A DNA stretch of 64,000 bases from Pelosinus sp. (GTDB taxonomy: Bacteria; Bacillota; Negativicutes; DSM-13327). Every line of letters starts with the position of its first letter. Positions within the stretch are counted from its first letter, which is position 1. Positions 9,178 to 56,167 of this stretch are shown piece by piece. The stretch spans positions 1 through 64,000 of the forward strand of contig JARBUM010000007.1 in NCBI GenBank assembly GCA_029239675.1. The letters are read 5' to 3'. The notes under the pieces were generated by a model. That model was not told the origin of the DNA. It worked only from the letters and a program-made list of their open reading frames with translations, and did no database searches. Both the position numbers and the translations under genes were made by a program.

Positions 9178-10209
9178 ATGAAAGTAAGTGTTATCGGCGC
9201 AACAGGGTATACTGGAGCAGAGTTATTACGAATATTAGCGAATCATCCGGAGGTTGAGATTGCTAGTATTACTTCAGAAAGCCATACTGGCACAAGTATT
9301 ACAGAGATATATCCTCATTTGACGGGGTTTTATGATAAAAAATTAACGAGTATGACAGATAGTAATCAATTTGCTGATAGTCAGGCCGTATTTATTGGCT
9401 TGCCTCATGGGCATGCAATGGGGATTGGAAAACAGTTAGCAGAGCAGGGCATTAGAGTAATTGATTTAGGGGCTGATTATCGTTTTCGCGATGAATCCGT
9501 ATATGAGGCATGGTATAAAGTAGAGCATACTCACCGAAACTCTGGTGCTGTATATGGTTTAACTGAGTTGTATCGTCAGCAAATAAAGACGGCAAGCATT
9601 GTGGGTAATGCAGGTTGTTATACCACGGCTAGCATTCTAGCGTTAGCTCCTTTAGCTAAATTTCACTTAATTGATACTAAGAACATTGTTGTAGATGCGA
9701 AATCAGGCGTTTCAGGTGCAGGGCGTGGACTTAGTTTAAACACTCATTTTGCAGAGATGTCTGAGAATCTGAAAGCTTATAATATAGGGGGACATCGGCA
9801 TACACCGGAAATTGAGCAGGCACTACAGGAGATTGCAGGTAAGGAATCCCTGATTAGCTTTACTCCTCATTTGATTCCCATGTCAAGAGGAATCTTGAGC
9901 ACTTGCTATGCTACGTTACAAGAGGGTGTAAAAGCCGAAGATATTGATCAGGCCTTTTATGAAATGTATGGCCAAGAATACTTTATCAGATTATTAGGAC
10001 GAGGCGGATACCCAGCTGTGAAGCATACTCGTGGGTCCAATTTCTGTGATTTAGGCTGGCATATTGATCCTCGCACCAATAGGGTAGTTGTAGTATCAGC
10101 CATTGATAACTTAGTGAAAGGTGCAGCTGGTCAGGCTGTGCAAAATTTAAATGTAATGTTTGGTTTTGATGAAGGCAGCGGCTTGAAGCAAGTTGCGCTG
10201 TATCCTTGA
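9178..10209 (+). CDS. argC: N-acetyl-gamma-glutamyl-phosphate reductase
   Basis: This enzyme reduces N-acetylglutamyl phosphate to the semialdehyde with NADPH, the third step of arginine synthesis. The protein has 343 residues and starts MKVSVIGATGYTGAELLR, a Rossmann nucleotide-binding turn. The catalytic Cys lies in VGNAGCYTTA and a conserved His in GGHRHTPEIEQ. The start follows GAGGAGGGG. The longer frame from 9121 would run through the promoter and is rejected. It is first of a seven-gene arginine operon with gaps of 14 to about 60 bases or overlaps. Confidence 0.97.
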   Translation: MKVSVIGATGYTGAELLRILANHPEVEIASITSESHTGTSITEIYPHLTGFYDKKLTSMTDSNQFADSQAVFIGLPHGHAMGIGKQLAEQGIRVIDLGADYRFRDESVYEAWYKVEHTHRNSGAVYGLTELYRQQIKTASIVGNAGCYTTASILALAPLAKFHLIDTKNIVVDAKSGVSGAGRGLSLNTHFAEMSENLKAYNIGGHRHTPEIEQALQEIAGKESLISFTPHLIPMSRGILSTCYATLQEGVKAEDIDQAFYEMYGQEYFIRLLGRGGYPAVKHTRGSNFCDLGWHIDPRTNRVVVVSAIDNLVKGAAGQAVQNLNVMFGFDEGSGLKQVALYP

Positions 10210-10238
10210 TGAGATAGAAATTATAAGGAGGTTTATTT

Positions 10239-11444
10239 ATGTATACAGAAATTAAAGGCGGTATTACAGCGCCTAAAGGGTTTAAGGCTGCTGGGGTGCA
10301 GGCTGGGATAAAAAAGAGCGGTAAACATGATGTAGCTGTTATTTATAGTACAGTACCTGCTAGTGTAGCAGGAGTGTGCACAACCAATACAATGGCAGCA
10401 GCTCCGGTGGCTGTATCTCGTTTAGCTTTTGAAAACGGCATCGCTTCCGCCATTGTGGTGAATTCAGGCTGCGCGAATGCTTGTACGGGTGAACAAGGGC
10501 TTGCGGATGCTAAGACGATGGTTCAAGTAACAGCAGACCTTTTGAATGTACCAAAGGAAGATGTTTTAGTGGCATCAACTGGAATTATTGGCGTAACGTT
10601 GCCAATGGAAAAAATAACAGAGGGTATTAAAGCAGCCGTTGCCCAGTTAGGTCCAGACGAACAGGAAAAATCGATGTTAGCGATTATGACTACGGATACC
10701 TTTCCTAAGCATTGTGCTTATGAGTTCGAGTTAGGCGGTGTGCCTGTACGAATTGCCGGTATTGCCAAAGGATCAGGAATGATTCATCCTAACATGGCTA
10801 CGATGTTGGCTTTTATCACGACGGATGTTGCAATTGCTCCTGCTATGCTTAAACAGGCATTAACAGATGCAGTGAATGTATCTTTTAATATGATCTCAGT
10901 TGATGGAGACACTAGTACTAATGATATGGCAAGTGTACTTGCAAATGGCTTAGCTGGTAATAAACTAATTGAGACTGCAGATGAAGATTATGTTACCTTT
11001 ACTAAAGTTTTAACAGATGTATGCATCTATTTGGCAAAACAGATCGTTGTTGATGGCGAAGGTGCGACTAAATTCTTAGAATTAAATGTGACAGGAGCTG
11101 TAAATTTTGCAGATGCCAAAAAGACGGCTATGGCAATTGCGAAATCACCTCTTGTTAAAACTGCCTTTTTTGGTCAAGACGCCAATTGGGGACGGATTTT
11201 ATGCGCAGTAGGTTATTCTGAGGCAGCCGCTGATCCTACGAAAATATCCTTATCGATTGGTGATTTGACCATTGTAAAACAAGGCTTGGGTATTAAAATC
11301 GATGAACAAGAACTAAAGAAGATTATGGCTGAACACGAAATTAAAGTCGTGGTAGACTTAGGGTTAGGTCAGGCAGAAGCCACTATGTGGACTTGTGATT
11401 TTTCCTATGAATATGTGAAAATTAATGGAGAATATCATACATAA
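10239..11444 (+). CDS. argJ: Bifunctional ornithine acetyltransferase / N-acetylglutamate synthase
   Basis: ArgJ recycles the acetyl group from N-acetylornithine to glutamate and can also use acetyl-CoA, so no argA or argE is needed here. The 401-residue precursor contains KGSGMIHPNMATML. The protein is known to cleave itself before the Thr of the ATML motif, giving alpha and beta chains. GDTSTNDMAS is another conserved block. AAGGAGG lies 8 bases before the ATG. The gene sits between argC and argB in the usual cyclic-pathway order. Confidence 0.97.
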   Translation: MYTEIKGGITAPKGFKAAGVQAGIKKSGKHDVAVIYSTVPASVAGVCTTNTMAAAPVAVSRLAFENGIASAIVVNSGCANACTGEQGLADAKTMVQVTADLLNVPKEDVLVASTGIIGVTLPMEKITEGIKAAVAQLGPDEQEKSMLAIMTTDTFPKHCAYEFELGGVPVRIAGIAKGSGMIHPNMATMLAFITTDVAIAPAMLKQALTDAVNVSFNMISVDGDTSTNDMASVLANGLAGNKLIETADEDYVTFTKVLTDVCIYLAKQIVVDGEGATKFLELNVTGAVNFADAKKTAMAIAKSPLVKTAFFGQDANWGRILCAVGYSEAAADPTKISLSIGDLTIVKQGLGIKIDEQELKKIMAEHEIKVVVDLGLGQAEATMWTCDFSYEYVKINGEYHT

Positions 11445-29379: not shown

Positions 29380-30795
29380 GTGGTTGTAGATATAATGAGC
29401 ATTGATAAAGATTCCATTGAATTAAGCTCTGTCAAAGAACTGTTTAAAGAATTGGAAGCGATTATCAGTTCTTCCTATGATGGTATGTTTATTACCGATG
29501 GTAAAGGTTTTGTCTTGCGGGTAAATCACGCTTATGAACGCATTACAGGGATTAAGGCCAGTGAGGTATTGGGTCGCAATATGAAAGACTTGGTAGAGGA
29601 AGGATATTATGACGAGTCGGTTACCCTATTGGTAATGGAGAGGCGGAAAACTGTTACTATTAATCAAACGGTAAAGAAAGACCGTAAGATATTGGTCACA
29701 GGGAACCCAATATTTGATGAGCAGGGTGATTTATTTCGTGTTGTAACAAATGTCCGGGATATTACAGAACTGGCTAATTTGCAAAACCAATTAATAAAAA
29801 CAAAAGAGCAGACATTGAAATATAAAACTGAATTGTCTCATTTACGGGCCCAGCATATTGAAGATAAAGAGACGATTTCCCGGAGTCCTGAAATGGAGAG
29901 GGTTATTGAACTAGCCATGAAAATTGCCGATGTAGATTCTACAGTATTAATCAGTGGAGAATCGGGTACAGGTAAAGAATTAATTGCTAAGTTAATTCAC
30001 AAACAAGGAAAAGGCACCTCGAAACCTTTTATTAAGATTAATTGTGCCGCTATTCCTGAACAACTACTGGAATCAGAACTGTTTGGTTATGAGGGCGGGG
30101 CATTTACTGGAGCCAGAAAAGAAGGCAAACCTGGCTTATTTGAATTATCACATAATGGCACCTTGTTTCTGGACGAGGTGGGAGATTTGCCCCTGTTGCT
30201 ACAGGTCAAATTACTGAGAGCTATACAAGAAAAAGAGGTGATAAGAGTCGGCGGTACAAAGGCTTTTACGATTAATGCAAGAATTATTGCTGCTACCCAC
30301 AGAGATATTAGCAACATGGTAAAACTGGGGACTTTTCGTGGAGACCTGTATTATAGGCTTATGGTTGTGCCAATTTACCTGCCCCCTCTGCGTAATCGAA
30401 AAGAAGACATTCCATTATTGATAATGCATTTCATCGAGAAATTTAATCACCATTTTGGATATAACAAAAAAATTATGCCCAAAGTAATTGATAAATTGAT
30501 AGGCTACTCATGGCCTGGTAATGTACGTGAATTGGAAAATGTTATAGAGCGTATGATGGTCACTGCCCCAAGTGAAGAAATTACTGTTAATCTTGTACCG
30601 GAGACTATTTCGAATAAAATCTTCTTACCTAAGCGGGGGACAAAGCTGAAGGAGGCCGTAGAACAAACCGAGACATATCTGTTGGATGAAAGCTACAAAG
30701 AATATGGATCATGGAACAGGGTTGCTGAAAAGTTAGGTGTTGATAGGACGACTATTTTTCGTAAGGTCGTCAAATATGGACTTAAAAAAGAATAG
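29380..30795 (+). CDS. Sigma-54-dependent PAS-AAA-HTH activator
   Basis: This 471-residue enhancer-binding protein has a PAS sensor (about 20-135), a coiled linker, an AAA+ domain (about 165-395) and a C-terminal Fis-type helix-turn-helix ending DRTTIFRKVVKYGLKKE. The ATPase shows GESGTGKE (Walker A), GAFTGARK (the loop contacting sigma-54) and LFLDEVGDLP (Walker B). The start is GTG at 29380, about 10 bases after GAGGAG. It lies directly upstream of a -24/-12 promoter and a 4-hydroxybutyryl-CoA dehydratase operon and very probably activates it. The PAS ligand is unknown. Confidence 0.93.
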   Translation: MVVDIMSIDKDSIELSSVKELFKELEAIISSSYDGMFITDGKGFVLRVNHAYERITGIKASEVLGRNMKDLVEEGYYDESVTLLVMERRKTVTINQTVKKDRKILVTGNPIFDEQGDLFRVVTNVRDITELANLQNQLIKTKEQTLKYKTELSHLRAQHIEDKETISRSPEMERVIELAMKIADVDSTVLISGESGTGKELIAKLIHKQGKGTSKPFIKINCAAIPEQLLESELFGYEGGAFTGARKEGKPGLFELSHNGTLFLDEVGDLPLLLQVKLLRAIQEKEVIRVGGTKAFTINARIIAATHRDISNMVKLGTFRGDLYYRLMVVPIYLPPLRNRKEDIPLLIMHFIEKFNHHFGYNKKIMPKVIDKLIGYSWPGNVRELENVIERMMVTAPSEEITVNLVPETISNKIFLPKRGTKLKEAVEQTETYLLDESYKEYGSWNRVAEKLGVDRTTIFRKVVKYGLKKE

Positions 30796-30827
30796 TGTGC
30801 AGAATTGCTACTGTTGCAATTGCACAC
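30795..30827. promoter_or_regulatory. Possible activator-binding palindrome
   Basis: GTGTGCAGAATTGC and GCAATTGCACAC form an imperfect inverted repeat around TACTGTT, about 130 bases before the sigma-54 promoter. That is a normal distance for an upstream activator site. It also starts at the regulator's last base, so a terminator role is not excluded. Confidence 0.45.
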
Positions 30828-30860
30828 AAAACTAGCTGTTCCTTAGGGCAATAGCGGTTA

Positions 30861-30902
30861 AATGGGGATGCTATTGCAGAAATGCAACAGCATCCCCATT
30901 TT
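30861..30902 (+). terminator. Intrinsic terminator after the sigma-54 activator gene
   Basis: AATGGGGATGCT and AGCATCCCCATT form a perfect 12-bp stem; TTGCAG and TGCAA can extend it. It is followed by TT only, so termination may be moderate. Confidence 0.7.
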
Positions 30903-30953
30903 CGGAATAGTCTAAATGTACGGAGAATAACAAAAAAATAATTGTTTTAGTTG

Positions 30954-30969
30954 TGGCACGAATTCTGCA
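30954..30969 (+). promoter_or_regulatory. Sigma-54 (-24/-12) promoter
   Basis: TGGCACGAATTCTGCA fits the consensus TGGCACG-N4-TTGCW at all but one position, with the GG and GC pairs exactly 12 bases apart. It lies 79 bases before the lactonase start and downstream of a sigma-54 activator gene. Confidence 0.85.
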
Positions 30970-31047
30970 TTAGTAATATGACGTAAGTAAATCGTTATTT
31001 ATTTTGGTAATGTAGTAGGAATAAATTCAAAATTATGAGGAGGGCTT

Positions 31048-31854
31048 GTGTTGAAGGTTTACGTATTAGATAATGGTTGGCTAGAGTGTGATGCAAATTG
31101 GATGGTGGCATTTTCGTCACTAGCAACATTGCAAGATCAGAAATGTACGCATAAGTGGATAAAAATTCCCGTATATGCAGTTCTTATTGATCATCCAGAA
31201 GGAAAAATTTTATATGACCTAGGCTGTCATCCTGATGCAATGAAGGGTTATTGGCCAGATGGATTATTAAGTGCATTTCCTTATTACTATAATGGGAATC
31301 AAGACTTTGTGAATCAACTGGCTTTGACTGGGACAAAACCAGAAGACATAAAAACAGTGGTTTTATCTCATATGCATCTTGATCATGCTGGCAATTTGAA
31401 TTTGTTTGAACATGCTGATGTTTATGTACACCGTAAGGATTTTGAATATGGTCAAACGCTTGTCCATTTATCTCCGAATCCTGCTAATCATGGGGCTTAT
31501 GTGAAAGCGGATATGGAAGTTCCAGTAAAACAATTCCATTTAGTAGAGGAAGACTTTGAGTTGGTCCCTGGAGTTGAGATTATTACCGTACCAGGACATA
31601 CCCCAGGTTTGTTGGGAATGATGGTTCATCTTAAAGAAGAAGGCACTTTAATATTTCCACAAGACGCTGTTTATACTCAAGAAAATTATGGCCCTCCAGC
31701 TAAAGCATCTGGAATTATGTATGATAATTTAGCATTCTTTGAATCCATTGAAAAAATTCGTAGTTATGCAAAAAAACATAATGCAAAAGTAATGTTTTCT
31801 CATGATATGGAATTTTTTAAAAATATGAAGCTGGCTCCTCAATTTTATAAATAA
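31048..31854 (+). CDS. Metallo-beta-lactamase-fold lactonase, BlcC/AttM-like
   Basis: This 268-residue protein has the dinuclear metal motif SHMHLDHAG (His108, His110, Asp112, His113). VPGHTPG, the bridging Asp in FPQDAVYTQE and a last His in FSHDMEF follow. This is the N-acyl-homoserine lactonase family, which includes Agrobacterium BlcC (AttM), a gamma-butyrolactonase. In this operon I infer hydrolysis of gamma-butyrolactone to 4-hydroxybutyrate, because the next genes activate and dehydrate that acid; quorum quenching is the alternative. The start is GTG 31048 or TTG 31051 after GAGGAGGG. Confidence 0.82.
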   Translation: MLKVYVLDNGWLECDANWMVAFSSLATLQDQKCTHKWIKIPVYAVLIDHPEGKILYDLGCHPDAMKGYWPDGLLSAFPYYYNGNQDFVNQLALTGTKPEDIKTVVLSHMHLDHAGNLNLFEHADVYVHRKDFEYGQTLVHLSPNPANHGAYVKADMEVPVKQFHLVEEDFELVPGVEIITVPGHTPGLLGMMVHLKEEGTLIFPQDAVYTQENYGPPAKASGIMYDNLAFFESIEKIRSYAKKHNAKVMFSHDMEFFKNMKLAPQFYK

Positions 31855-31896
31855 AGTAAGATGCAAAGCAGATAAAATTCAAGGGAGGATATTAAT

Positions 31897-33351
31897 ATGT
31901 CTTTAAAAACAGCGCAGCAGTATGAGGAAAGCTTACGCAAACTTAATCTCAAAGTATACTTGCAAGGTGAACTAGTAAAAAATTGCGTCGATCATCCCAT
32001 TATCAGACCATCTATGAATTCTGTAAAAATGACCTATGAATTGGCCCAAGACCCCCAATATGCAGATCTCATGACTGCTACTTCTCATCTAACTGGTAAA
32101 AAAATAAATCGTTTTTGCCATCTGCACCAAAGCACAGAGGATCTTGTTAAAAAAGTAAAAATGCAACGCTTATTAGGCCAGAAGACGGCTGCCTGCTTCC
32201 AACGTTGCGTAGGAATGGATGCAATCAATGCTGTTGACAGTGTTACTTTTGAAATGGACAAAAAACTAGGTACTACTTATCATGATCGGTTTACTAAATT
32301 TCTACTGCAAATGCAGGAGGAAGATTGGACAGTAGACGGTGCCATGACTGATCCTAAAGGTGACCGAAGTTTATCGCCAAGCAAACAAATTGATCCTGAT
32401 TTATATGTGCATGTTGTGGAGAAAAGAGAAGATGGTATTGTAGTTTGTGGCGCTAAGGCCCATCAAACAGGTGCTCTAAACTCTCACATGATATTGGTTA
32501 TGCCAACAATCGCCATGGTTAAAGAAGATGCTGATTATGCTGTTTCCTTCGTGGCTCCAGCAGATGCAGAAGGCATACTTTATATTTATGGACGCCAATC
32601 TTGTGATACCCGTAAACTGGAAGGCGGGGATATCGATGTTGGAAACAAACAGTTTGGCGGACACGAAGCACTGATGGTATTTGATCATGTATTTATTCCT
32701 TGGGAGAATGTCCTCATGTGTGGTGAATATGAATTTAGCGGTGCACTAGTAGAACGTTTTGCTGGATATCATCGCCAAAGTTATGGTGGCTGTAAAGTCG
32801 GAGTAGGCGACGTATTAATTGGTGCAACGGCACTCGCTGCAGATTATAACGGTGCAGCGAAAGCCTCCCATGTTAAAGATAAGCTCATTGAAATGATGCA
32901 TCTCAATGAAACCTTATATGCCTGTGGTATCGCCTGCTCAGCTGAAGGTTATAAAACAGCGTCAGGCAATTATATGATAGATCTCTTACTGGCTAACGTC
33001 TGCAAACAAAACGTGACTCGGTTCCCCTATGAAATTGCCCGTTTGGCCGAAGATGTTGCTGGTGGTTTAATGGTCACTATGCCGTCTGAAAAGGATTTGC
33101 TTAATCCTGAAATTGGAAAAGTAGTTGAAAAGTATTTCCGCGGTATAGGGGCAATACCAACGGAGCATCGTATGCGTATTTTACGCTTGATTGAGAATAT
33201 TACCTTAGGTACTGCCGCTGTTGGCTATCGGACAGAATCTATGCATGGTGCTGGATCTCCACAAGCACAGCGTATCATGATCGCTCGTCAAGGCAACCTA
33301 GAGCAGAAAAAAGAGCTGGCTAAAGTAATTGCTGGTATTCCTCAGAAATAA
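31897..33351 (+). CDS. abfD: 4-hydroxybutyryl-CoA dehydratase / vinylacetyl-CoA isomerase
   Basis: This enzyme dehydrates 4-hydroxybutyryl-CoA to crotonyl-CoA with a flavin and a [4Fe-4S] cluster. The 484-residue protein closely matches the Clostridium aminobutyricum enzyme from memory. It has the cluster ligands Cys100 and Cys104 (KTAACFQRCVGMDA) and the His and Cys of FAGYHRQSYGGCKVG, plus MTDPKGDRS and ESMHGAGSPQAQRIMIARQG. All four ligands are present, so it should be active. GGGAGG precedes the ATG. It sits second in a sigma-54-controlled operon. The enzyme is oxygen sensitive and fits an anaerobe. Confidence 0.95.
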   Translation: MSLKTAQQYEESLRKLNLKVYLQGELVKNCVDHPIIRPSMNSVKMTYELAQDPQYADLMTATSHLTGKKINRFCHLHQSTEDLVKKVKMQRLLGQKTAACFQRCVGMDAINAVDSVTFEMDKKLGTTYHDRFTKFLLQMQEEDWTVDGAMTDPKGDRSLSPSKQIDPDLYVHVVEKREDGIVVCGAKAHQTGALNSHMILVMPTIAMVKEDADYAVSFVAPADAEGILYIYGRQSCDTRKLEGGDIDVGNKQFGGHEALMVFDHVFIPWENVLMCGEYEFSGALVERFAGYHRQSYGGCKVGVGDVLIGATALAADYNGAAKASHVKDKLIEMMHLNETLYACGIACSAEGYKTASGNYMIDLLLANVCKQNVTRFPYEIARLAEDVAGGLMVTMPSEKDLLNPEIGKVVEKYFRGIGAIPTEHRMRILRLIENITLGTAAVGYRTESMHGAGSPQAQRIMIARQGNLEQKKELAKVIAGIPQK

Positions 33352-33497
33352 TTTGAATATAAATGTTAGATACAAAGGGTAGGAAGAGCGTAAAGACAAA
33401 GCTGTTATAATTTATAGCTCGACCTGCCCTTTAGGTTTTTATAGTTAAAGCTTACTTCTTTACTTCGTTGTATATAACAAAATAAGAGGATGGTCAA

Positions 33498-33779
33498 ATG
33501 GAAAAAATACGCGAGATTATAGCACAAAAAATTCGCCCAATGCTTAATGCTCACAATGGAGATATTGAACTGGTAGAAATAACAGCCGACGGGTTTGTTA
33601 AAGTAAGGCTTACTGGAGCATGCGCAACGTGTCATGGTGCTAGGCAAACCATGACTGAAGTGGTTGAAGTCGCATTAAAAGAGGTATGTCCACAAATCAA
33701 AGGTGTCATACCAGTGCAACAGGTAAGCGATGATCTAATTAATCAGGCGCTAAAGATCCTACGCAAAGAAAAAACATAA
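33498..33779 (+). CDS. NifU C-terminal-domain (Nfu) iron-sulfur protein
   Basis: This 93-residue protein is a stand-alone Nfu domain with the scaffold motif GACATCHGA (Cys-x2-Cys; the usual Pro after the second Cys is His). Nfu proteins carry and deliver [4Fe-4S] clusters. Its place between abfD, whose product needs such a cluster, and the CoA-transferase gene suggests a dedicated maturation role. GAGGATGG lies before the ATG. The next gene starts three bases after the stop, implying coupling. Confidence 0.9.
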   Translation: MEKIREIIAQKIRPMLNAHNGDIELVEITADGFVKVRLTGACATCHGARQTMTEVVEVALKEVCPQIKGVIPVQQVSDDLINQALKILRKEKT

Positions 33780-33782
33780 ATC

Positions 33783-34085
33783 ATGGAAAATCGGCGAATC
33801 AGCATTGTTTTTTGCGGAGGATGCAATCCGCGGATTGATCGGGGGAACGTTGCCCTTCAAATACAGGCTATTCTTGTGGCAAGGGGTTATCAAATTGGAT
33901 ATAACTCGTTAGATGGTGATTTCGTTATATATATGAGTGGATGTACGGTCAATTGTGCACTAAAGTACAACCTGAACAATCAACCTTCTGTTGTAGTTGC
34001 TGCAACCTCTGTTGATGCAGTGGCTATAGACGAAGGAGAACTTGTCAGTGAAATTGTGATGAAAGTGAGGGATTATTTTGAATAA
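33783..34085 (+). CDS. Small cysteine-motif protein of unknown function
   Basis: This 100-residue protein has FCGGCNPRIDRG at residues 10-21 and MSGCTVNCALKY near residue 55. Two Cys pairs like this could bind a metal or cluster. The rest reads like a small alpha/beta fold (VALQIQAILVARGYQIGY). There is no clear ribosome site and only three bases separate it from the Nfu gene, so translation is probably coupled; its own 3' end overlaps the CoA-transferase start by 8 bases. I do not recognise a named family. Context suggests a role tied to the AbfD operon, possibly redox or cluster handling. Confidence 0.75.
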   Translation: MENRRISIVFCGGCNPRIDRGNVALQIQAILVARGYQIGYNSLDGDFVIYMSGCTVNCALKYNLNNQPSVVVAATSVDAVAIDEGELVSEIVMKVRDYFE

Positions 34086-35373
34086 TTGGAGAGACCTTTA
34101 TCAGAATAAAATCGTTTCTGCTGAGCAAGCTGTACAACATATAAAATCTGGTGATCGAGTAGTAATTGGGCATGCCTGCGGTGAACCACCTACACTGGTA
34201 GAAGCATTGGTAACTCGGGCACCTGAGATTAGCAATGTGGAAATTGTACACATGGTAGCTATGGGGCCAGCTAAATTCGCCCAACCGGAGATGGAAAGAA
34301 GTTTTCGGCACAATGCGTTATTTGTGGGCGGGTCAACACGAAAAGCGGTAGAAGAAAAACGGGCAGATTTTACACCATGCTTTTTTTCGGAAATCCCCAG
34401 ATTATTTAAAAACAATATATTACCTGTAGATGTTGTATTACTCCAGGTTACACCACCTGATGAACAGGGATTTTGCAGTTATGGTGTTTCAGTTGATTAT
34501 ACAAAAATTGCAGCGGAATGTGCTCACATTGTTATTGCCCAAATGAATAATTGTCTTCCACGTACAGGGGGGGCAAAAATTCATCTGGACGTCATTGACT
34601 TTATTGTGGAGCAGGATGAGTCAATCATTGAGTTAAAGCCTCCGAAAATTGGTGACGTGGAGAAAGCTATAGGGGAAAATATCGCTGCACTCATCCCCGA
34701 TGGTGCAACGCTACAATTGGGTATTGGCGCTATTCCAGATGCAGTACTCTTATTTTTAACCGACAAAAAGGATCTGGGTATTCATTCGGAGATGTTTTCT
34801 GATGGCGTAGTGGTCTTAGCTGAGGCTGGTGTTATTACGAATCGGAAAAAGACAATTAATACTGGGAAATTTATGGCCACTTTCCTAATGGGCACCAAAA
34901 GATTGTATGATTTTGTGAATAATAACCCAGATGTGGAAATGCAATCTGTGGATTATATTAATGATCCGTATATTATTGGCCAGCATGAGAACATGGTTTC
35001 CATCAATTCTGCCTTGCAGGTGAATCTAATGGGAGAAGTTAATGCAGAAATGATAGGTACAAGACAATTTAGTGCTGTAGGTGGACAGGTAGACTTTGTT
35101 CGTGGTGCTAGCAGATCGCTGAATGGCAAATCCATTATTGCGTTGCCGTCTACAGCATCTGGCGGTAAAATATCGCGTATTACCTGTCAACTTGACTGTG
35201 GGGCTGCGGTAACTACTTCACGTAATGATGTACATTATGTTGTTACAGAATATGGCGTAGCAGAATTACGGGGGAAATGCATTCGTGAGCGGGCAGAAGC
35301 CCTGATTGCTATCAGTCATCCAGATTTTCGCCATAGCTTGACGACCGAAGCCAAAGAAAAAGGACTTATGTAA
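34078..35373 (+). CDS. abfT: 4-hydroxybutyrate CoA-transferase (acetyl-CoA hydrolase/transferase family)
   Basis: This 431-residue class I-type CoA-transferase moves CoA from acetyl-CoA to a carboxylic acid. Motifs include VTPPDEQGFCSYG, QLGIGAIPDAVL, and LGIHSEMFSDG with the likely catalytic Glu near residue 237, as in the Clostridium aminobutyricum 4-hydroxybutyrate enzyme. Activity on 4-hydroxybutyrate is inferred from the linked abfD. The start is TTG with GAGGG upstream, overlapping the preceding gene by 8 bases. It is the last full gene of the operon. Confidence 0.88.
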   Translation: MNNWRDLYQNKIVSAEQAVQHIKSGDRVVIGHACGEPPTLVEALVTRAPEISNVEIVHMVAMGPAKFAQPEMERSFRHNALFVGGSTRKAVEEKRADFTPCFFSEIPRLFKNNILPVDVVLLQVTPPDEQGFCSYGVSVDYTKIAAECAHIVIAQMNNCLPRTGGAKIHLDVIDFIVEQDESIIELKPPKIGDVEKAIGENIAALIPDGATLQLGIGAIPDAVLLFLTDKKDLGIHSEMFSDGVVVLAEAGVITNRKKTINTGKFMATFLMGTKRLYDFVNNNPDVEMQSVDYINDPYIIGQHENMVSINSALQVNLMGEVNAEMIGTRQFSAVGGQVDFVRGASRSLNGKSIIALPSTASGGKISRITCQLDCGAAVTTSRNDVHYVVTEYGVAELRGKCIRERAEALIAISHPDFRHSLTTEAKEKGLM

Positions 35374-35447: not shown

Positions 35448-35597
35448 ATGATTACTATTGATGGATTTGCGGCAGAGTATATAAAAAAGCGCCAATCATC
35501 AGCCGTTATTGAGCTGAAATTCGAGCCAGCTATTGGTGGATGCGCCTGCTCAGGTAAGAACATAACAGGCAGTTATGTTCCATTTGTGTTAGTGTGA
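35448..35597 (+). pseudogene. Truncated HesB/IscA-like Cys-motif protein
   Basis: The ATG at 35448 has GTGGAGG upstream. The product is 49 residues, starting MITIDGFAAEYIKKRQSS and containing PAIGGCACSGKNITGSYVP. This resembles the first half of small HesB-like (CC/Se motif) proteins, which I recall as about 95 residues. The frame then ends at TGA and the rest of the domain is missing. Its last 25 bases overlap the 3' end of the convergent transporter gene, so a rearrangement probably cut it. It might still be made as a short peptide. Confidence 0.55.
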
Positions 35598-51336: not shown

Positions 51337-51419
51337 TATTTCTAGAGAAGACATAAAAGAAGATTTTCTAAAAAATGAGATTGATCTAGAAACTACAAGC
51401 AAAAAAGGAAGTGGGAAGC

Positions 51420-52970
51420 ATGCGACTGCGGATGCCTTGCATTGACCGTGTAGGATTAGTTCGGGATATTAGCATCATACTGGAAGAACGTAAGATTAAC
51501 ATCGTTGCCATTGAAGTAGAACAAGAGGCTATTTTTTTAGAGTGTCATGGTGTACCTACGGAGATGAGGCAGGAACTTATTGAGGTGCTAGGAAAGGTAG
51601 TGGACGTACATAAAGTGGAAAAAACCCGCTTTATGCCTTCAAAGGAACGCGCCGAGCAACTTGATGCCGTATTAACTTCAGTACGTGATGGAATTTTAGT
51701 TGTGAATTGTGATGGTAAGATTATTCAATGCAATGCGGCAGCAGCACGCATTCTAAACTTATTGGATGGGAAAATCACAGGGGAAAAAATAGAAGATCAT
51801 CTCGCTAACAATCTACTGGTATCAGAGACCTTGAAAACAGGCTTCTCTTATCGCGACCGGGAAGTGTTTGTTGAATGTATCGGTAGTTATTGTGTAATTA
51901 GTACCATCCCACTTAAAGATAATAATAATGAAGTGATTGGGGTTGTAGCGGTACTTAGGGATATTAGGGATGTAAGGGACTTGGTACAGAAAATGACAGC
52001 TTCCTTACCTGTAGATTTTGGCGACATTACCTGCTCCAGCTTGGTAATGAAGGAATTGATTCTTCAGTCTCGTAGGTATGCTCTAAGTGACTCTACCGTT
52101 CTGATTCGAGGAGAGACGGGTACTGGTAAGGAACTTTTTGCTCGGGCATTACATAGTGGCTCTATGAGGTCACAAGGTACCTTCGTGCCAATTAACTGTG
52201 CTGCAATTCCTGAGACCTTAATGGAGAGTGAACTTTTTGGATATGAAGAAGGCGCTTTTACAGGGGCTGTGAAGGGAGGAAAGCCAGGGCTATTTGAATT
52301 ATCCAATGGAGGTACTCTATTTCTTGACGAAATTGGAGAAATGTCCGTGCATTTGCAAGTGAAACTATTGCGGGTACTTCAGGAACGGAAGGTGCGGCGT
52401 TTAGGCAGTTCTCGAGAAGTAGGGGTGGATGTGCGCGTGATCACTGCTACGAATCGCAATCTGGAAGAAATGGTGGCCCGTGGCGCTTTTCGCGAAGATT
52501 TATATTATCGTTTAAATGTGATTCCTCTCACGCTGCCGCCTCTTCGGGAACGTCCCGAGGATATTAGTTTGCTAGCTAAATATTTCTTACAGCGTTTTGC
52601 TGATAAAATGCGTCGCCCAGTGAATGGTTTTACAAAAGAGGCAATAGAACGGCTACAGGAGTACGATTGGCCTGGTAATGTGCGGGAATTGGAAAATATT
52701 ATTGAGCGGGCAGTGAATTTGGTGGACGGCCCTCAAGTCCATCCAGAACACATTTGTCTAGGGAGAATTGCAGCGACTAAAAGTCCGTTATCTACCATAC
52801 AGTTCGAGACATATCAGAGTTTGAAGGAACGTCTAGCTGAGGCAGAACGAGCCATTTTAAAGGAAACCTTAAAACGTTATCGTTCTTCTCGGCGAGTTGG
52901 GTCTGTTTTGGACTTATCTCATACCGCTGTATTAAAAAAAATGCGGAAATATAATTTGGTTGATGTTTAA
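51420..52970 (+). CDS. TyrR-type sigma-54-dependent regulator
   Basis: This 516-residue protein has an N-terminal ACT-like domain (about 1-75), a PAS domain (about 80-190) and an AAA+ domain (about 205-440). The AAA+ part shows GETGTGKE, EGAFTGAVKGG and LFLDEIGEM. A C-terminal TyrR-like helix-turn-helix (VLDLSHTAVLKKMRKYNL) ends it. The intact GAFTGA loop means it should drive sigma-54, unlike E. coli TyrR. The ATG at 51420 follows AAAGGAAG. It lies just upstream of the tyrosine phenol-lyase promoter and is its probable, aromatic-amino-acid-responsive activator. Confidence 0.92.
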   Translation: MRLRMPCIDRVGLVRDISIILEERKINIVAIEVEQEAIFLECHGVPTEMRQELIEVLGKVVDVHKVEKTRFMPSKERAEQLDAVLTSVRDGILVVNCDGKIIQCNAAAARILNLLDGKITGEKIEDHLANNLLVSETLKTGFSYRDREVFVECIGSYCVISTIPLKDNNNEVIGVVAVLRDIRDVRDLVQKMTASLPVDFGDITCSSLVMKELILQSRRYALSDSTVLIRGETGTGKELFARALHSGSMRSQGTFVPINCAAIPETLMESELFGYEEGAFTGAVKGGKPGLFELSNGGTLFLDEIGEMSVHLQVKLLRVLQERKVRRLGSSREVGVDVRVITATNRNLEEMVARGAFREDLYYRLNVIPLTLPPLRERPEDISLLAKYFLQRFADKMRRPVNGFTKEAIERLQEYDWPGNVRELENIIERAVNLVDGPQVHPEHICLGRIAATKSPLSTIQFETYQSLKERLAEAERAILKETLKRYRSSRRVGSVLDLSHTAVLKKMRKYNLVDV

Positions 52971-53003
52971 ACAGAGTATGTCTACTTGGTTTCGAGAATA
53001 GAC

Positions 53004-53034
53004 ATTGGAAACTTTTTGCAGTATTGGAAACTTT
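53004..53034 (+). promoter_or_regulatory. Direct repeats, possible activator sites
   Basis: ATTGGAAACTTT occurs twice (53004-53015, 53023-53034), 19 bases apart, about 90 bases before the sigma-54 promoter. This placement suits binding of the adjacent TyrR-type protein. They do not match the E. coli TyrR box. Confidence 0.45.
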
Positions 53035-53070
53035 CTTACAACAAAAGATTGCCAAACCATGAAATAGTAG

Positions 53071-53120
53071 TGTGCCAGTTCAAGTACAATCGTACTTTTG
53101 AACTTGGCATACTTTTTGCA
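53071..53120 (+). promoter_or_regulatory. Sigma-54 promoter overlapping a palindrome
   Basis: TGGCATACTTTTTGCA (53105-53120) is a good -24/-12 promoter with GG and GC 12 bases apart. The -24 half is also the right arm of an inverted repeat, GTGCCAGTTCAAGTAC-AATC-GTACTTTTGAACTTGGCAT (53071-53110 region), which could be a repressor or hairpin site. Confidence 0.85.
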
Positions 53121-53198
53121 ATTATATAAAGTAAGCTTACAGAATACTACCCGGAGTTTTAGGTAGTAGGTCAAATATGTAGCTAGGAAAATAATTAA

Positions 53199-54605
<1,407 letters not shown>

Positions 54606-54772: not shown

Positions 54773-56167
54773 ATGGATATTTTTCGCACCAAAAGTGTTA
54801 CGATAATGGAAAATGAAGCAAAGACACATTCCCTTAAAAAGACCATGGGAGCCTTAGACATTATATTAATTGGGATCGGTGTAATTATCGGTACAGGAAT
54901 TTTTGTTCTAACTGGTGTAGCAGCTGCTAAGTACGCTGGTCCTGGTATTATGTTATCCTTTGTTATATCGGGTATTACATGTGCTTTCGTGTGCCTTGCC
55001 TATGCGGAACTGGCTTCTATGGTTCCCATTGCTGGTAGTGCTTATACTTATACGTATACATCCCTAGGTGAGGGAATTGCCTGGCTGGTTGGTTGGAATT
55101 TAGTACTGGAATATTCCGTAGGAGCAAGTGCTATCGCAGGCGGTTGGTCAGCGTATACTGTTGGCTTACTCAAATCCGCAGGTATTGATATACCCTTGGC
55201 ATTAACCGCCGTTCCGGCAGATGGAGGCATTGTCAATTTACCAGCTGTTCTGGTTACGTTGTTTATGACTTGTTTGCTAGTTCTAGGCGTAAAAGAAAGT
55301 GTGACAGTCAATAGGGTATTGGTAGCCGTAAAACTAGGAGCTATTTTTATATTCTTGCTAATGGCTGGTCCTAAAGTGAATACAGCTAATTGGACACCTT
55401 TTATGCCATTTGGTTTTGCAGGAGTTTCCGCGGGAGCTGCGGTTATATTCTTTGCTTATCTTGGTGTTGATTCTATTGCTACCGCTGCTGAAGAAACTAA
55501 GAATCCTAGACGTGATATGCCCATTGGTATTATCGGATCTTTAGCAGTATGTACTGTTTTATATATTGCAGTAGCTGCCGTTATGACGGGGGTGGTGCCT
55601 TATTATCAATTAAATAATGCAGAACCTGTAGCTTTTGTTCTACGCACTCTTGGTTATAATTTTGGCTCTGCTTTAGTCGGTACGGGAGCTATTTGCGGAC
55701 TTTCTACTGTATTATTAGTCATGATGTATGCACAAACCAGGGTGTTTTTTACCATGTCTAGGGATGGACTTATTCCAGCAGTAGTTGGGAAAATTCATTC
55801 TAAATATAGGACTCCTCACGTTATTACCATTATAGTAGGTGTGGGTGTAGCACTCATTAGCGGTTTCACTCCTATCGGCATTGTCGCTGAAATGTGTAGT
55901 ATTGGTACCTTATTTGCTTTTGTCATTGCAACCATTGGTGTAGTTGTTCTTCGTAGAACCAAACCGGATATGGAACGTCCCTTCCGTTGTCCTGCAGTAA
56001 ACATTGTTGTTACACTGGCAGTGCTTTGCTGCTTTTATATCATGTATAATTTGGCCTTTGCAACCTGGATTCGGTTCTTTATCTGGAGTGGGATTGGTTT
56101 AGTCATTTATTTTACATATGGCTATTCTCATAGCAATTTACATGAGAGTAACAAAAAAGATATATAG
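54773..56167 (+). CDS. APC-family amino acid permease
   Basis: This 464-residue protein has twelve predicted membrane segments. It shows the APC signature GIGVIIGTGIFVLTG in segment 1 and a conserved AEETKNPRRDMPIGI loop after segment 6, like YfnA/CAT-type transporters. Substrate range in this group is broad. Its position after tyrosine phenol-lyase suggests uptake of tyrosine or another amino acid, but this is inference. GGAGGAGG precedes the ATG. A terminator follows. Confidence 0.9.
   Translation: MDIFRTKSVTIMENEAKTHSLKKTMGALDIILIGIGVIIGTGIFVLTGVAAAKYAGPGIMLSFVISGITCAFVCLAYAELASMVPIAGSAYTYTYTSLGEGIAWLVGWNLVLEYSVGASAIAGGWSAYTVGLLKSAGIDIPLALTAVPADGGIVNLPAVLVTLFMTCLLVLGVKESVTVNRVLVAVKLGAIFIFLLMAGPKVNTANWTPFMPFGFAGVSAGAAVIFFAYLGVDSIATAAEETKNPRRDMPIGIIGSLAVCTVLYIAVAAVMTGVVPYYQLNNAEPVAFVLRTLGYNFGSALVGTGAICGLSTVLLVMMYAQTRVFFTMSRDGLIPAVVGKIHSKYRTPHVITIIVGVGVALISGFTPIGIVAEMCSIGTLFAFVIATIGVVVLRRTKPDMERPFRCPAVNIVVTLAVLCCFYIMYNLAFATWIRFFIWSGIGLVIYFTYGYSHSNLHESNKKDI

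Follow-up and report, generated by a model that had tools for sequence, protein, structure and literature searches.

A predicted sigma-54 operon in Pelosinus sp. with a lactonase gene ahead of abfD: a probable route for anaerobic gamma-butyrolactone use

A predicted sigma-54 operon in a 64 kb stretch of Pelosinus sp. DNA (the whole of which is called the window here) is probably a catabolic unit that lets this Negativicutes anaerobe ferment gamma-butyrolactone. The lactone, which is small and neutral, would enter the cell by diffusion and would be opened to 4-hydroxybutyrate by a two-metal lactonase, the product of the first gene. A coenzyme A (CoA)-transferase, AbfT, would then form 4-hydroxybutyryl-CoA, and the dehydratase AbfD would convert this to crotonyl-CoA, to be taken onward by the butyrate/acetyl-CoA genes of the genome; we infer that flux runs in this direction. 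An enhancer-binding protein (EBP), bound to TTGCA-N4-TGCAA sites, would activate the unit via sigma-54, and its inducer is probably 4-hydroxybutyrate or the lactone. If so, the operon provides a concrete route for anaerobic gamma-butyrolactone use, in organisms that include the cultured Lucifera butyrica. Its features all lie on the plus strand:

29380-30795, +, EBP gene (Pfam PAS, Sigma54_activat (AAA+) and HTH_50)
30797-30810, +, distal candidate activator site GTGCAGAATTGCTA (8/10 letters, 157 bp upstream of the promoter)
30874-30887, +, proximal candidate activator site TTGCAGAAATGCAA (10/10 letters, 80 bp upstream of the promoter)
30954-30969, +, sigma-54 (-24/-12) promoter TGGCACGAATTCTGCA (consensus TGGCACN5YTGCW, a site recurring in relatives)
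31048-31854, +, lactonase gene, AiiA-type metallo-lactonase (PDB, Pfam and NCBIfam comparison)
31897-33351, +, abfD, 4-hydroxybutyryl-CoA dehydratase type (PDB match, Pfam, cluster ligands)
33498-33779, +, nfu, Nfu/NifU C-terminal-like Fe-S carrier (PF01106)
33783-34085, +, small Cys protein gene, 100 aa (motifs CGGCNPRIDR and SGCTVNC)
34078-35373, +, abfT, AbfT-type 4-hydroxybutyrate CoA-transferase, TTG start (PDB match, Pfam, E238)

Apart from the two candidate activator sites, these features, from the EBP gene to the CoA-transferase gene, had been listed in the same order by a first-pass annotation of the window, and all are present. That annotation also described the genes as being in tight order with overlaps, which holds for nfu and the Cys protein gene (3-bp gap) and for the Cys protein gene and abfT (8-bp overlap), but not for lactonase and abfD (42 bp) or abfD and nfu (146 bp).

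The identities of the two CoA-dependent enzymes are consistent with a 4-hydroxybutyrate pathway. AbfD scores 796 bits against 1u8v over residues 3-481 and carries the four cluster ligands that had been noted before, C100, C104, H292 and C299; the [4Fe-4S] ligands of 1u8v are, we assume, C99, C103, H292 and C299. The CoA-transferase, matching over almost all of its length, scores 547 bits against 3eh7, named “4-hydroxybutyrate CoA-transferase,” and 472 bits against 3gk7. It has E238, presumably the catalytic Glu of AbfT, and it misses the butyryl-CoA:acetate model (349 bits, cut-off 675). For the last part of the route, a row of genes on contig C20 of the genome to which the window belongs includes thiolase, acyl-CoA dehydrogenase and 3-hydroxyacyl-CoA dehydrogenase genes; the same row also appears to hold a CoA-transferase, two etf genes and a crotonase, as read from gene order and opening residues only.

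The lactonase has the hallmarks of an AiiA-type metallo-lactonase. It keeps HxHxDH (H108, H110, D112, H113), H184, D206, Y209 and H252, and its closest PDB sequence is AaL (6CGY, 215 bits), followed by GcL and AiiB. The protein scores 127.7 bits against the AttM model NF045700 (cut-off 390), so orthology with BlcC is rejected, and 236 bits against the AhlS model (cut-off 475), which is above its AttM score but also below the cut-off. Since it falls below both cut-offs, the earlier label “BlcC/AttM-like” is loose. Its best plasmid matches are 38% identical to a protein annotated as belonging to the N-acyl homoserine lactonase family. By alignment, the pocket patch W26/F87/I237 of AaL is kept as W18/F77/I223. 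AaL and GcL have the metal ligands and, by alignment, this patch in common with the Pelosinus enzyme, but they have been studied as quorum-quenching enzymes. AaL hydrolyzes several gamma- and delta-lactones, including gamma-butyrolactone with a kcat/KM of 1.4e5 per M per s (PMC6062542, Table 2). Because homologues open with MKVYV, the lactonase may start at TTG 31051 instead of GTG 31048; no leader peptide was evident when the protein was read by eye. An AlphaFold model built from six sequences was poor (mean pLDDT 52.8) and was not used.

Where else does this lactonase occur? At E <= 1e-50 it was found in 5 of 380 genomes of the class: the Pelosinus genome itself, Lucifera butyrica (G130), a Selenomonadales metagenome-assembled genome (MAG; G134), a Bacillota MAG (G074) and G368. 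In four of the five, Pelosinus among them, the gene is in a row with abfD: it is placed as in the window in G130 and G134, and it follows abfD-abfT in G368 (L157). A scan of named genomes, which is no census because it depends on exact peptide patterns, returned six loci, in G130, G134, G074, a member of the Planctomycetota (partial match), a Hungateiclostridiaceae MAG (UBA1305) and the archaeon Ca. Methanomethylicus mesodigestus. In UBA1305, a Clostridia-type MAG (L133), the lactonase gene overlaps by 4 bp the gene for an iron-type alcohol dehydrogenase. This enzyme has “Cvir-Hbd2” as its best PDB match (369 bits; next 103) and shares 48% identity with the dehydrogenase encoded before abfD in L114. 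The name of this dehydrogenase comes from PDB kinship and context because it scores only 104 bits against the NCBI 4-hydroxybutyrate dehydrogenase model (cut-off 500). The sole AbfD-like match of UBA1305 is 40% identical and lies away from the lactonase.

There is also evidence in support of control by sigma-54: a -24/-12 promoter downstream of the EBP gene, as the first-pass annotation had it, with candidate sites upstream and rpoN present in the genome. TGGCACGAATTCTGCA is the sole zero-mismatch match to TGGCACN5YTGCW in the 64 kb. The pattern alone is not rare, since nine matches are found versus 3.2 expected when one mismatch is allowed; it is its recurrence in relatives that puts the promoter well above chance. 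The scan covered 17 loci (window included) with an EBP gene directly upstream, giving 18 regions between EBP and operon because one locus (L103) is in two pieces. When GG and GC must be in register and 10 or more of 12 consensus letters must match, a sigma-54 site is present in 18 of 18 regions, compared with 0.06 regions per 18 in random stretches taken from these loci. A promoter by chance was therefore rejected. EBP homologues, 59-82% identical, lie upstream of the abfD units in 16 fetched loci. The best NCBIfam model for the EBP is PrdR, at 444 bits, below the cut-off of 795.

The palindrome TTGCA-N4-TGCAA recurs before these promoters, in many regions at 78-91 and 147-161 bp, and 9 of the 17 regions other than that of the window have a site at 157-161 bp; those of L101 are more distant, at 168-255 bp. 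The palindrome was first spotted in the window, L101 and L103, and was tested on 14 held-out regions, among which L092/L093 and L094/L098 are close pairs. (An earlier comparison of promoters and sites used mononucleotide shuffles.) The held-out regions contain 15 matches at 9/10 letters or better, versus 0.15 in random stretches, and at 8/10 letters the palindrome is present in 14 of 14, against a random mean of 2.7 of 14. The proximal site TTGCAGAAATGCAA sits within a longer, terminator-like inverted repeat, 30858-30903, which could putatively both end the EBP transcript and bind the EBP. A similar terminator-like repeat around the proximal site was seen by eye in L094 and L098. On the minus strand of L103 (G134), positions 9600-10450, there are two sigma-54-like sites between EBP and lactonase, and the first is followed by a small reading frame that looks by eye like a membrane protein.

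The place occupied by the lactonase gene varies among relatives. Outside the window's own, 45 AbfD rows at 79% identity or more led to 38 fetched neighborhoods; among the seven rows that were not fetched are three partial or fragment matches located at the ends of contigs. Immediately upstream of abfD stands a permease gene in 13 neighborhoods, the gene for this lactonase in 2 and that for a homologue of 4-hydroxybutyrate dehydrogenase in 6; the other 17 have a different gene there or none that was recognized. The full order abfD-nfu-cys-abfT is present in 15 of the 38 as well as in the window. Lucifera butyrica, an isolate, and the Selenomonadales MAG have this order with the same lactonase first (81-82% identity). 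Chance adjacency or a binning artefact was rejected, because the order recurs in these two genomes, which come from other families and one of which is that of an isolate. The permease is about 470 aa, NCS2-like, and scores 358 bits against PDB 7tak, called “PurT” by its depositors. With that as its best solved relative, a role as 4-hydroxybutyrate importer is not claimed. No fetched neighborhood of the 38 has permease and lactonase together (lactonase matches below 40% identity left out). In the Pelosinus genome itself (271 contigs, 89% complete), neither a permease homologue nor a close 4-hydroxybutyrate dehydrogenase (best 31%) was found.

The first gene has changed repeatedly. In a tree from the joined AbfD, AbfT, Nfu and Cys proteins of 16 operons (single-gene trees were seen beforehand), the three lactonase operons do not form one clade, and their monophyly is rejected (approximately unbiased test, p = 4e-6). 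The tree requires three gains or losses, at least two of which are forced by well-supported branches, and the window operon groups with two permease-type operons of its own genus (support 99/95). Since the lactonase operons are split on a tree of the core, the core stayed and the first gene changed. The ancestor may have had the lactonase gene, the permease gene or both. A neutral lactone would need no permease, which would fit the change of first gene. Because many relatives have an NCS2-like permease where the window has its lactonase, the operon can be described as a fixed core with an exchangeable feeding gene. A fuller version of this idea is offered tentatively, as somewhat less probable than an even chance: a fixed abfD-nfu-cys-abfT core for 4-hydroxybutyrate processing in the sigma-54 abfD operon, whose first place has seen more than one exchange between the gene for an NCS2-like permease and that for a dedicated gamma-butyrolactonase, such that the same switch would serve an imported compound or a membrane-permeant lactone, depending on the species, and with the Cys protein and Nfu as a dedicated maturation pair for the unusual His-ligated cluster of AbfD. 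The operon is an example of a unit in which promoter, regulator and core enzymes persist while the feeding gene is replaced, and this exchange, together with an AbfD-linked Cys protein, is its most interesting aspect.

Has the lactonase gene been acquired recently? Its G+C content is 0.359, compared with 0.422 for abfD and abfT and 0.385 for the window. A recent foreign origin is not favored because the identity of the lactonase to the L101 and L103 copies (81-82%) is above that of AbfT (77-80%). The lower G+C content means that the question is not closed.

Several points weigh against gamma-butyrolactone fermentation, or against parts of it. The substrate assigned to the lactonase would follow from assayed relatives such as AaL, and AaL acts on the acyl-homoserine lactone (AHL) C4-AHL with a kcat/KM of 1.3e6 per M per s, about 10 times that on gamma-butyrolactone (PMC6062542). 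Since the W/F/I patch is kept, the alignment gives no sign of narrowing to a small lactone, though M20, M22 and M86 of AaL are replaced by L12, C14 and A76. A 65% identical lactonase is encoded by Ca. Methanomethylicus mesodigestus (L134), in whose genome no AbfD match was found, and the G074 lactonase (59%) is on a contig other than those with the two permease-type operons of that genome. As for regulation, the palindrome reaches 9/10 letters in only 8 of the 14 held-out regions, and one piece of L103 (L103a) has none even at 8/10. The gap between abfD and nfu may split the operon. Finally, the absences from the Pelosinus genome are weak evidence because its assembly is in 271 contigs and 89% complete.

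What else could explain a lactonase in this position? One explanation is metabolite repair. 4-Hydroxybutyryl-CoA tends to cyclize to gamma-butyrolactone, and the lactonase might simply return this leaked lactone to the pathway, with no outside lactone needed. The available part of PMC7090098 does not mention this cyclization. Repair would suit the loci where the lactonase is found beside abfD-abfT (L157) or a 4-hydroxybutyrate dehydrogenase homologue (L133), in which internal 4-hydroxybutyrate is possible. However, the leak would be expected in permease-type operons too, and none of the 13 has a lactonase in the fetched stretch, although G074, host of two of them, has a 59% copy elsewhere; moreover, the Pelosinus lactonase stands where its relatives have a permease, for which no homologue was found in its own genome. 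Repair is unlikely. The range of lactones accepted by AaL (PMC6062542), together with the conserved pocket patch, raises a different option, namely that the true substrate is a substituted gamma- or delta-lactone whose hydroxy acid is processed by the same CoA-transferase and dehydratase. Both of those enzymes are of the 4-hydroxybutyrate type (AbfD at 796 bits to 1u8v), and we consider another lactone distinctly unlikely.

It is also conceivable that the gene encodes an AHL lactonase for quorum quenching that is in the operon by chance. Its family and best scores do point to AHL lactonases, and AaL prefers C4-AHL, but a chance location is hard to reconcile with lactonase-abfD rows in four of five genomes, or with the 4-hydroxybutyrate-type dehydrogenase next to the lactonase in UBA1305; the probability of quorum quenching is very small. 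The preferred reading remains the lactone-to-crotonyl-CoA route under sigma-54 that the first-pass annotation had put forward. The rows and the UBA1305 pairing support it, as do the recurrence of promoter and palindrome, rpoN and the C20 genes.

The small Cys protein is associated with AbfD well beyond this operon. Of 150 genomes (that of Pelosinus included), 45 have AbfD homologues (E <= 0.001). The Cys protein occurs in 29 genomes, each of which is one of these 45, and in none of the 105 others (Fisher p = 8e-20, kinship uncorrected). Of 35 Cys protein matches, 26 are no more than 1 kb and 30 no more than 6 kb from one of 38 AbfD positions, with the remaining five on contigs that lack an AbfD match. 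Searches of Pfam and NCBIfam assigned the protein to no family at E <= 0.001, it matches no PDB sequence at E <= 10, and a fold search with its AlphaFold model (three sequences, pLDDT 78.5) returned no PDB entry at E <= 0.001. Together with Nfu, the Cys protein probably helps to build or repair the [4Fe-4S] cluster of AbfD. The AbfD-linked Cys family, which has no name, is a candidate for a partner protein of an Fe-S/flavin enzyme with an unusual mechanism. A second AbfD-like protein, 36% identical, is encoded on contig C23 of the Pelosinus genome (L131), where the 12 kb fetched contain neither a cys nor an nfu match.

How does the operon relate to known systems? Clusters of genes for succinic semialdehyde dehydrogenase (SSADH) and 4-hydroxybutyrate dehydrogenase (hbd) with abfD (L110, L112, L113, L115, L123), which we take to represent the C. 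kluyveri-type succinate route, have the same abfD, with abfT in the neighborhood. In these clusters, 4-hydroxybutyrate would come from succinic semialdehyde; there is no lactonase, and no EBP gene is directly in front, although L115 has an EBP homologue ~3.8 kb before the SSADH gene. A close precedent was reported by Nie et al. (2019), who predicted sigma-54 control of abfD-nifU-hyp-ach-golB with XanR in Clostridium (PMC6615313, Table 1). That regulon likewise has a dedicated EBP and, matched by order, the same abfD-nifU-small protein-CoA-transferase-type gene series as the window, but it is from Clostridium rather than Negativicutes and is filed under butyrate/butanol synthesis. The words “lactonase” and “hydroxybutyr-” are absent from the main text of that paper, and golB was not recognized in the window. 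A 2025 survey of sigma-54 likewise assigns to its control in Clostridia COG2368, whose name there covers 4-hydroxybutyryl-CoA dehydratase (PMC12316311). In the blcABC (attKLM) catabolic operon of Agrobacterium, a lactonase opens gamma-butyrolactone to 4-hydroxybutyrate, which is then oxidized to succinic semialdehyde under the control of the repressor BlcR (PMC5924552); in the window, CoA activation and dehydration under a sigma-54 activator are proposed instead. The two lactonases are distant (128 bits to the AttM model, cut-off 390), and the window operon has neither a 4-hydroxybutyrate dehydrogenase nor a semialdehyde dehydrogenase gene. The first-pass annotation knew of no description of this exact arrangement. 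This holds for the lactonase version, which was not found in open-licence papers by word searches that miss synonyms, but not for the sigma-54 abfD-nifU-hyp-ach core. Because that core was already predicted in Clostridium, the new element looks to be the lactonase in first place. Lucifera butyrica, which belongs to the Sporomusaceae (PMC6315149) within the Negativicutes (PMC6406122), ferments succinate, citrate, malate and pyruvate, among others; gamma-butyrolactone is not mentioned in the available part of its description, and 3-hydroxybutyrate is listed as not tested, apparently in the Lucifera butyrica column (PMC6315149).

The 146-nt gap between abfD and nfu, taken whole, out-folds 198 of 200 shuffles (z = -2.7), and its centroid structure includes a predicted hairpin (33375-33431, plus strand). 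Because of this gap and its predicted fold, the transcript may be processed or attenuated between the two genes. An attempt to assign a role to the hairpin itself gave none.

Downstream of abfT is a 3'-truncated gene remnant:

35448-35597, +, CC/Se-motif gene remnant, 3'-truncated (61% identity over 49 aa to the L095 protein)

The remnant corresponds to the N-terminal 49 residues of a protein with a CC/Se motif. Full-length copies of 108-116 aa are found after abfT or nearby in L095 (111 aa), L102, L105 and L109. The remnant itself matched no family in an NCBIfam search, and its L102 homologue passes NF041239.

Other sigma-54-like sites were seen. On C20 (L167, ~4145), TGGCATAAGAATTGCA lies 59 bp before the first gene of the row with the thiolase and the two dehydrogenase genes, with no TTGCA-N4-TGCAA site at 9/10 letters nearby. 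In the window, a second EBP gene (51411-52970) precedes a sigma-54-like site, TGGCATACTTTTTGCA, at 53105, and TTGCAGTATTGGAA lies 89 bp upstream of that site. Downstream are genes for a beta-eliminating lyase (53226-54605) and an amino-acid permease (54773-56167). With this second EBP and a site before the lyase gene (51411-54605), the abfD unit is not the sole EBP/sigma-54 unit in the window.

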